Assembly (NCBI RefSeq): GCF_032362555.1
Contig: NC_083506.1
Span: forward strand, 543,501 to 607,500
Source: Amyelois transitella
Lineage: Eukaryota; Arthropoda; Insecta; Lepidoptera; Pyralidae
Reading direction: 5' to 3'
Length of the DNA: 64,000 nt
A program made the translations under genes and the position numbers. Numbering within the stretch: the stretch's first letter is position 1; each line of letters begins with the position of its first letter. The notes under the pieces are model-generated. The model was not told the DNA's origin, ran no database searches, and saw nothing but the letters and a program-made list of their open reading frames with translations. Below are positions 27,701-30,700 of this stretch, piece after piece.

Positions 27701-30700
27701 CATCATTGAAGCCCCCAAAGATGAAAAATTTTTCCCGTTTTCTTCACATTTTCTATTATTTCTTTGCTCCTTATAGTTGCAGCGTGATGTTATATAACCT
27801 AAAGCCTTCCTTGATAAATGGCCTATTCAACACAAAAATAATTTTTCAATTCGAACCAGTACTTCCTGAGATTAGCGCGTTCAAACAAACAAACAAACTC
27901 TTCAGCCTTATAATATTAGTATAGATGTATGTATATCAGTAACATTAGTAGAACTTAGTGATTCAAATCCAACCACAAAACTACTCAGAAAACATGAAAC
28001 CCCACCCTTGACCAAGTTTGTGTAAATACTAACGCAATGTTTACGTCACTAGCTCTGGTTACAGCCCTACAGCTGTTTGCGTGATAAATGAACTGGACTT
28101 ACCCTCTTTTTTATAGTTATTAATATTATATAAGGCGTTATGGCTTTTTTTAGAACGGCAAATAGGGAATAGAGCTTTCATTATGGTTGGAATTGGGGGG
28201 TGTGAAAGGAACTGTATTGATTTTTAACATGACTTGTTTTATCAATATTTAAGTTGTTTTTATGTAGGTACATAAAGCTAAGAGTAAATTGTCTTGAGTT
28301 CCGTCGTCTTGAAATGTTACTTTGAGATTTTAATGTGGCAAATGAGTTCACACTATGTAGTTACATACTACATACATACATAAATATACATAAAATCACG
28401 CCTTGTTCCCGGGGGGTAGGCAGAGACTGATTTTTTCACTACATACATACATATGGTCACGTCTATATCCCTTTAGGGGTAGGCAGAGCCAACAGTCTTG
28501 AAAAGACTGAATGGCCACGTTCAGCTATTTGTCTTAATGATAGAATTGAGATTCAAATAGTGATAGGTTGCTAATCCATCGCCTAAAAAAGAATCTCAAG
28601 TTTGTAAGCCTATCCCTTAGTCGCCTTTTACGACATCCATGGGAAAGAGATGTGAGTGGTCCTATTCTTTTTTGTATTGGTGCCGGGAACCACACGGCAT
28701 TAATTGTAATTAGTTTTTTTCACTTATCACAATTATTATGATTCCAGGCTTTACACAAAGAGAGCGGGCAGGTGCTTGCCATCAAGCAGGTGCCGGTGGA
28801 CACGGACCTCCAGGAGATCATCAAGGAGATCTCCATCATGCAGCAGTGCGACAGCCCCTACGTGGTCAAGTATTACGGCAGTTACTTCAAGAATACTGAT
28901 CTATGGGTGAGATTCTTTCTATCTTCTATTGTTAGTGGGTCAGTGCTGGACATCAAGCAGGTGCCGGTGGACACGGACCTCCAGGAGATCATCAAGGAGA
29001 TCTCCATCATGCAGCAGTGCGACAGCCCCTACGTGGTCAAGTATTACGGCAGTTACTTCAAGAATACTGATCTATGGGTGAGATTCCTTCTGTCTGTGTT
29101 GTTAGTGCGTGAGTGCTGGACATCAAGCGGGTGCCGGTGGACACGGACCTCCAGGAGATCATGAAGGGATCGCCAAAAGACTACAGGTACTGTTATCTAT
29201 TTGAGAGAAACCTTGTCTCCTAGCATGTATACCTTTTGGTTTAGAAGTAAGGTCGATTAGTGCTGGACATGTGGCAGGTTGTGTTGGATATAGATCGTGT
29301 TCTAACGTTAAGGAGGTTACCAAATTTCCTCATGAAATATTGTAAAAACCCTCACTTATGCAAGGGTACGCCGATTACCACCTTTAAGGCGCGAATTAGT
29401 CAGATCATCACACGAAGGGACTCTTGTCTGATCTCCGTGTTAACAGGCTATCATCACCCTGCTTCAATCACGGCATTAAAGTACTCATTTCATATCTCAC
29501 TATAAGATTATCTAAAAAAGAAAAAATTTAATTCATATTTAAGCTACCTACTCTTAATGCACTGTGATCATTCATATAAAAAATATGTCAAATCATAATC
29601 TAAGCCGCAACAATTCAAGCTTCAGTTTTTTAAGAAGATTTATAAGTCTTGATATGAGCATGTAGTCCAAAAAGGGACATAATAAAAAAATGTATTAATT
29701 AATTTTATTCTGTTCATGTCAGCTTACTAACGAGAGGACTATACACCTGCTGGTAAGTGGTTACCGTCGCACGTATAAAGCAAAAAATACATTAATGTAC
29801 ATTGAATGCATTTGTACTTGCATGTTTTGCGTCGCGTGCGCATATTTTTTTTTTGCTGGTTTAATTTAAAATCATTTTTTCAAAATTTTTATTCATTATT
29901 ATAGGATTCTTCATATCGCTTAATAATTGTCAAAACTTTTAGTTTCACAACATTGGTTGATGTCAAATAAATTACTTAAAAACTATGTATACTGCCGCTT
30001 CCAAGGCGTCAGTGCAGAAGATGCGGTAACAAACTGCACTGCAGCATTTTCTTCTTCTTTATTGTTTTAGTCTTATTCTTCATGTTCAGTAACCATGATC
30101 CAATCTGGTCATATTCCATTGTAAAAAGTCACGGAGATCAGACGGGAGACTGTTTATTATTTGTGGTGATTACCTTTCTATTCTCATATTATTATTCCCA
30201 TATTATTATTTCCATTCCCGAGTTAGCCTCGAGGCTAACTCAATCTGTGTACTTTGTCCTGTATATATTTATTTATTTATTTATTGTTATTGATTAATTT
30301 ATTTGAGCGTCGGTCATTAGTTTCAATACTAACCGATGCTCTTATGGTGTAAACATAGTGAAGAAACATGCACATTCAGACAACTGGATGTTTGCTGCAA
30401 TACGGGTTAGGTTTACATGCAAAGGTTGCGGAGGTCAGATGGGAGTCGCTTCGTGTAAAAACCTGACTCACCCAATCCAGGATCCATGGTTAAAGGCATT
30501 CCCCGGCCCCTTCCAGAGCGATGAGGAGGAACCGGGACAAGAGGAAGAAGATATTTATTTATTCCTTGGTCTTCGTAATGCTAAGACGGTGATGGTACCT
30601 TGGGCTTTATTTTATGTGGTATTCGTCACATTTAAGCCTTTTATTATTACACTAGCTGTGCCCGCGACTTCGTCCGTGTGGAATAGTTATTTTGGGCGTC

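Follow-up and report, generated by a model that had tools for sequence, protein, structure and literature searches.

The Hippo gene and its third exon

The 64,000-nucleotide stretch of Amyelois transitella DNA discussed here, hereafter the window, corresponds to C2:543501-607500 in an assembly of 327 Mb in 33 contigs, which was the search space for the genome comparisons. It carries the gene for the Hippo kinase, and directly behind the third exon of this gene lies a tandem array of exon 3 copies. All parts of the gene and of the array are given on the + strand. The last 99 nt of exon 2 (27044..27142), which begin with LKKLSEESL, end at a donor at 27143 (gtacag). Exon 3 itself, referred to as copy 1, aligns to human STK3 and occupies 28748..28906, with the acceptor gattccag and the donor TGG|GTGAGA. 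It is 159 nt or 53 codons long and both of its ends are in phase 0. The initial annotation of this DNA had it span the stretch from the exit of the glycine loop to the alphaC region, but the exon runs beyond alphaC to the junction with IVMEY in exon 4. Exon 4 (30941..31168, ending in GVAGQLT) has an acceptor that would join either of the two exon 3 donors described below.

For exons 2-5 read together with the 57-residue insert discussed below, the best ten PDB sequences are all STK3 or STK4 (511-531 bits) and the next is STK24 (274 bits). Judged by its sequence, the kinase domain is closest to STK3/STK4 among solved structures and is that of a Hippo/MST kinase. The Pfam family Pkinase (PF00069) matches exons 2-5 with 207 bits without the insert and 224 bits with it, the match to the insert-bearing protein falling in two stretches. 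Exons 2-5 have an open frame and align to STK3, which means that copy 1 must be able to splice normally.

Anatomy of the exon 3 array

Tandem Repeats Finder places the array at 28772-29175 with a period of 171, 2.4 copies and 94% matches, and it is the only array with a period of at least 80 in the window. A 171-bp period with almost no base changes in the exonic part had been reported in the initial annotation and is borne out. The stretches 28763-28924 and 28934-29095 are 95% identical over 162 nt, and between 28773-28906 and 28944-29077 only 2 of 134 bases differ, at 28777 and 28779. This is an adjacent, same-strand copy of an exon within the same gene, that is, a tandem exon duplication.

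The array was also described as a triplication that stays open and in frame, with a truncated third copy. This is correct for copy 2 but not for copy 3, and a fourth copy had not been listed. The spacing is 171 bases from copy 1 to copy 2 and 170 from copy 2 to copy 3, and another 147 bases on lies a fourth similar stretch. The spacing of 170 puts copy 3 (29104..29167) off frame, and its reading stops at 29162-29164. Compared with copy 2 it differs at 2 of 17 and 2 of 47 bases, similarity stops after 29167 and most of its 3' part has been lost; a possible trace of the 3' end at 29180-29218 has a score of 31, which 5 of 500 shuffles reach. Copy 4 (29251..29441) is strongly decayed. Its best part is 29252-29288, with 73% identity to copy 2. 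Copy 4 as a whole has a score of 54, above the maximum of 51 from 500 shuffles, although the shuffle-tested stretches were picked after an initial comparison had pointed to the similar regions. The remaining intron, 29451-30940, gives a score of 30, which is reached by 96 of 200 shuffles. Copies 2, 3 and 4 have AGTGCTGGACAT in common, and copy 1 is without it.

Between the end of copy 1 and the start of the repeat as Tandem Repeats Finder sets it there is a gap of 36 bases, as had been noted. In the region 28763-28779 copy 1 matches copy 2 at 11 of 17 bases (binomial P 0.0007), and the homology between the two copies probably begins near 28763 rather than at 28772. On that alignment 9 of the 36 spacer bases would be exon-derived, and the other 27 (28907..28933), which we read as derived from the intron, are open in frame. 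The second spacer (29078..29103) differs from the first at 5 of 18 columns past the stretch in which the two copies are identical.

A genome search with the array, in which very common words were skipped, gave nothing further except two 66-bp pieces in a foldback element. A relation to another dispersed repeat was considered for 29168-29700 and rejected, as in the same kind of search this stretch matched only itself.

Copy 2 is a mosaic

The differences between copy 2 and copy 1 are very unevenly distributed. At the 5' end of copy 2 (28934..28950) 6 of 17 bases differ from copy 1 and only 2 of 17 from copy 3. In the next 136 bases (28951..29086, compared with 28780-28915) there is no difference from copy 1 at all, a tract that spans the remaining exon body, the donor and 9 intronic bases; over the first 47 bases of this tract copy 3 differs from copy 2 at two positions. 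To the right, 28916-28933 and 29087-29103 differ by four substitutions and one gap in 18 columns. By these comparisons the left end of copy 2 groups with copy 3 and its body with copy 1. An identity block between paralogous copies with sharply more divergent flanks is the pattern of a gene conversion tract, and it is found here (6/17, 0/136 and 5/18).

Fisher's test of the left flank against the middle tract gives 7.7e-07, and when 11 differences are placed at random over 171 columns, a clean run of 136 does not arise in any of 500,000 trials; both tests weigh all sites equally, which favors a recent overwriting given the coding constraint on copy 1, and the stretches compared were chosen after looking. 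The 42 codons concerned contain 23.3 synonymous sites, for which the probability of no change is 0.10, 0.02 and 0.003 at 10, 17 and 25% neutral divergence. Selection at the level of the protein alone could hardly account for 136 identical bases.

Because the flanks differ, because AGTGCTGGACAT is missing from copy 1 and because the fourth copy has decayed, the array appears to be older than the identity between copies 1 and 2. The duplication had been suggested to be very recent. What does look recent is the 136-base identity, but the array around it seems older.

Splicing outcomes and the reading frame

At the two donors the last 127 exonic and the first 9 intronic bases are the same. The 171 nt from the first to the second (28907..29077) make up 57 codons with no stop, and the length is divisible by three. 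It had been predicted that retention of the spacer and use of the copy 2 donor would insert 57 residues with LDIKQ in place of the LAIKQ of copy 1, and that splicing into copy 2 alone would break the frame; both predictions agree with our analysis. With one of the three AGs in the spacer as acceptor, an exon of copy 2 alone would measure 166, 142 or 134 nt and in no case keep the frame; copy 2 has the same donor as copy 1 but no spacer AG that yields an in-frame exon. The in-frame AGs sit within the exon bodies and would yield altered exons that start at 28892, 28958 or 28961. Insect introns have a minimum length of about 50-60 nt. Splicing copies 1 and 2 together as separate exons is ruled out because the 36 bases between them are too short for an intron; in human, a minimum intron length is required for splicing (PMC5435141). 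As read from the frames, two outcomes keep the frame: use of donor 1, which would give the normal protein, and use of donor 2 (29078), which would give one with 57 extra residues.

How much should be made of an open frame of this kind? The probability that the 12 spacer codons are open by chance is 0.56, and a period is divisible by three one time in three. An open in-frame insert therefore needs no selection. Four 100-nt folds were predicted at the donors and none was clearly more stable than shuffled sequences (z-scores -0.19 to 0.77). In these folds donor 1, unlike donor 2, is bracketed by a helix of some 10 pairs, an observation that is not relied on here. Of two identical competing donors the intron-proximal one is preferred, a generalization for which a literature search found no supporting paper.

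Predicted effect of the insert on the kinase

The insert would be placed after KNTDLW and before the IVMEY of exon 4, a site that we take to be strand beta5 from the general architecture of kinase folds. It may add a second beta3-alphaC-beta4 unit and split strand beta5. In the second unit the alanine of the VAIK motif, which lines the adenine pocket, is replaced by aspartate. A survey of the human kinases reports that all active ones have A, V, I, L or M at this position (PMC2639636). Replacement of the alanine by phenylalanine abolishes the activity of PKC isozymes and Akt1, and according to that report phenylalanine was the only such substitution that effectively blocked ATP binding (PMC12721161). 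The effect of aspartate is for this reason a prediction only. The second unit should be poor as an ATP-binding beta3, and the first unit could serve in this role with the insert looped out before beta5.

Origin and possible use of the copies

The explanation that we consider probable, with considerable room for doubt, is an old tandem duplication, with a recent overwriting of copy 2 from copy 1 and with copies that are for the most part passengers in intron 3. The unit duplicated in tandem long ago would have comprised most of exon 3, the donor and the beginning of intron 3, and the present state would be one working exon with three downstream copies of differing age. About 136 bases of copy 2 would then have been overwritten from copy 1, through either gene conversion or an unequal exchange whose hybrid junction lies near 28951, and copy 2 would thereby have regained a flawless exon body and a donor that matches the real one exactly. 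The donor at 28906|28907 would make the normal kinase. Given the identical second donor and the open frame, some transcripts may use that donor and carry the 57-residue insert. We favor a passenger array because the open frame needs no selection and because copies 3 and 4 have decayed; copy 3 has lost its frame and most of its 3' part, as expected for a copy that is not used. Several points weigh against this explanation. An alternative donor that is in use would likewise be intact and come with an open frame and an identical exon body. That the array is old is read from short stretches of 17, 18 and 47 bases and from the weakly similar copy 4, the part of which from 29290 on is marginal (score 35, reached by 6 of 500 shuffles). 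A recent duplication into a pre-existing similar sequence, or an exchange between diverged haplotypes, would look alike.

Another possibility is one very recent crossover, unequal and without gene conversion, in which copy 1 and an older copy 3 gave rise to copy 2 and the spacer differences came from diverged haplotypes. It predicts the same hybrid, with a copy-3-like 5' end and a copy-1-like 3' end, and it would also be expected to leave near-identical spacers, whereas the comparison of 28916-28950 with 29087-29120 gives just 28 matches in 35 columns, next to an exon body with no differences in 136 bases. We regard it as a real but minority possibility, and it concerns the origin of the array and not its use. 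An alternative that does concern use, and that we find rather doubtful, is that both donors of the 330-nt open stretch are employed, so that normal Hippo is made along with a form that is longer by 57 residues in the N-lobe. An in-frame insertion under regulation had been among the suggestions of the initial annotation and is possible. The domain could fold with either copy, and with copy 2 in place ATP binding should be poor or absent. The donor contexts are identical (0 of 136 differ), the 57 codons have no stop and a length divisible by three, PF00069 still matches the insert-bearing protein with 224 bits in two stretches, and the alanine position is A, V, I, L or M in all active human kinases according to the survey (PMC2639636). 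Set against this, an open in-frame insert is likely without selection (0.56 and one in three), no special RNA structure was seen at either donor in the four folds, copy 3 has decayed, and the predicted inactivity is weakened by the finding that phenylalanine alone effectively blocked ATP binding (PMC12721161). Weak use of donor 2 would fit both this alternative and the passenger explanation, so the two overlap.

An improbable extension of donor 2 use is a built-in decoy, in which donor 2 would give a kinase with a second beta3-alphaC-beta4 unit unable to hold ATP, and in which conversion would keep the alternative exon end intact while the older copies decay. Such a protein would bind Hippo partners without signaling, or would switch between two folding registers. 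The initial annotation had also raised a collapsed-haplotype artefact, which the graded divergence of the copies disfavors. An assembly artefact in the form of an uncollapsed haplotype or a polishing error is very improbable as well. Polishing can impose exact identity over 136 bases, but it would have to be reconciled with the graded divergence, the spacings of 171 and 170, the decayed fourth copy and a 327-Mb assembly in 33 contigs, and a repeat of 171 bp is short relative to long reads. A mutually exclusive exon pair of the Dscam type is scarcely credible, as the exons from the spacer AGs (166, 142 and 134 nt) are not divisible by three and copy 2 cannot replace copy 1 in frame, and a swap between copies that are identical across most of the exon would gain little.

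Relation to known systems

Tandem exon duplications occur in about 10% of animal genes according to a 2002 study cited in PMC9013439, and they are raw material for alternative splicing. As in the examples of that paper, the Hippo array consists of coding exon copies that adjoin an exon in the same gene, and some of those examples were likewise unannotated; the Hippo spacer differs in being too short for an intron, and the copy extends the frame to give a longer exon and not a swap (PMC9013439). The exon 4 and 6 arrays of Daphnia Dscam are also tandem arthropod exons, of 160 and 130 bp, but introns of about 200 and 100 bp separate them, and that study found no gene conversion among paralogous exons (PMC3236188). 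The Hippo array has a block of complete identity and its frames forbid mutual exclusion.

STK3 and STK4 (MST2 and MST1) are the Hippo kinases of human. When exons 2-5 with the insert are aligned to STK3 (5dh3), the match falls into two stretches, which score 151 and 389 bits; in this alignment STK3 is without such an insert, and the split lies at this place, with both stretches covering STK3 residues 57-98. Hippo of Macrobrachium nipponense is an arthropod gene with isoforms of 698, 688 and 656 aa, which differ by 10 and 42 residues compared with 57 in the insert described here (PMC8170997). No exon duplication in a lepidopteran Hippo was found among the matches listed from the open-licence literature.

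If copy 2 has just been overwritten by its parent exon, the array would illustrate that a copy decaying in an intron may recover the whole exon body and the donor in a single step. It concerns the kinase core of a pathway that controls growth, so that transcripts using donor 2, if any, should be evident in RNA immediately. If the copies are passengers, as seems likely, it is an ordinary example of its kind.

An exon 3 fragment in a foldback element

At two loci of a repetitive element, C9:3576774-3577715 and C1:9312503-9313444, the hairpin loop carries in antisense orientation an exact 66-bp match to 28801-28866 in exon 3, a piece that copy 2 contains as well (in the loci L002 and L003 it lies at L002:1501-1566 and L003:1501-1566). 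The element body is 97-100% identical in all 40 candidates scored, of 2064. Among 30 distinct places the Hippo piece was found in 2 and the start of the usual loop of the family in 28, the Hippo piece replacing the usual hairpin loop. This looks like the capture of a gene fragment inside the loop of a high-copy foldback (long-hairpin) element. Relative to the body, the usual loop has one orientation in 8 of 28 loci (L006-L033) and the other in 20, as if it flips between the palindromic arms. No causal link between the foldback element and the exon array is apparent.

An internal 118-bp tandem repeat was found in 30 of 30 element loci tested. In a small and biased sample of 30 loci (L004-L033, L001-L003 being excluded; 111,097 bases), all centered on this one element, there are 31 arrays with a period of at least 80, of which 30 are the element's own 118-bp repeat and 1 is another; this suggests that tandem arrays of such a period are not very rare.

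Other features of the locus and the genome

In the whole genome search exon 3 has a single full-length match; the tandem copy, aligned over 135 bases, is 99% identical, far more than chance would give, and copy 3, aligned over 63 bases, is 91% identical. Besides the tandem copy and the foldback-element pieces, the only other match listed is a protein match of 48% identity at C1:3672286-3672426, which possibly belongs to a related STE20-type kinase. Further downstream in the window, an open frame at 38429-38638 is a candidate for the C-terminal SARAH domain of Hippo/MST kinases, which it resembles. Pieces of a dispersed repeat (88% and 82%) lie at 28372-28488, in intron 2 close to exon 3; this repeat is also present elsewhere in the window and in L002. 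A short tandem duplication with a period of 43, two copies and 88% matches is located at 47207-47292.
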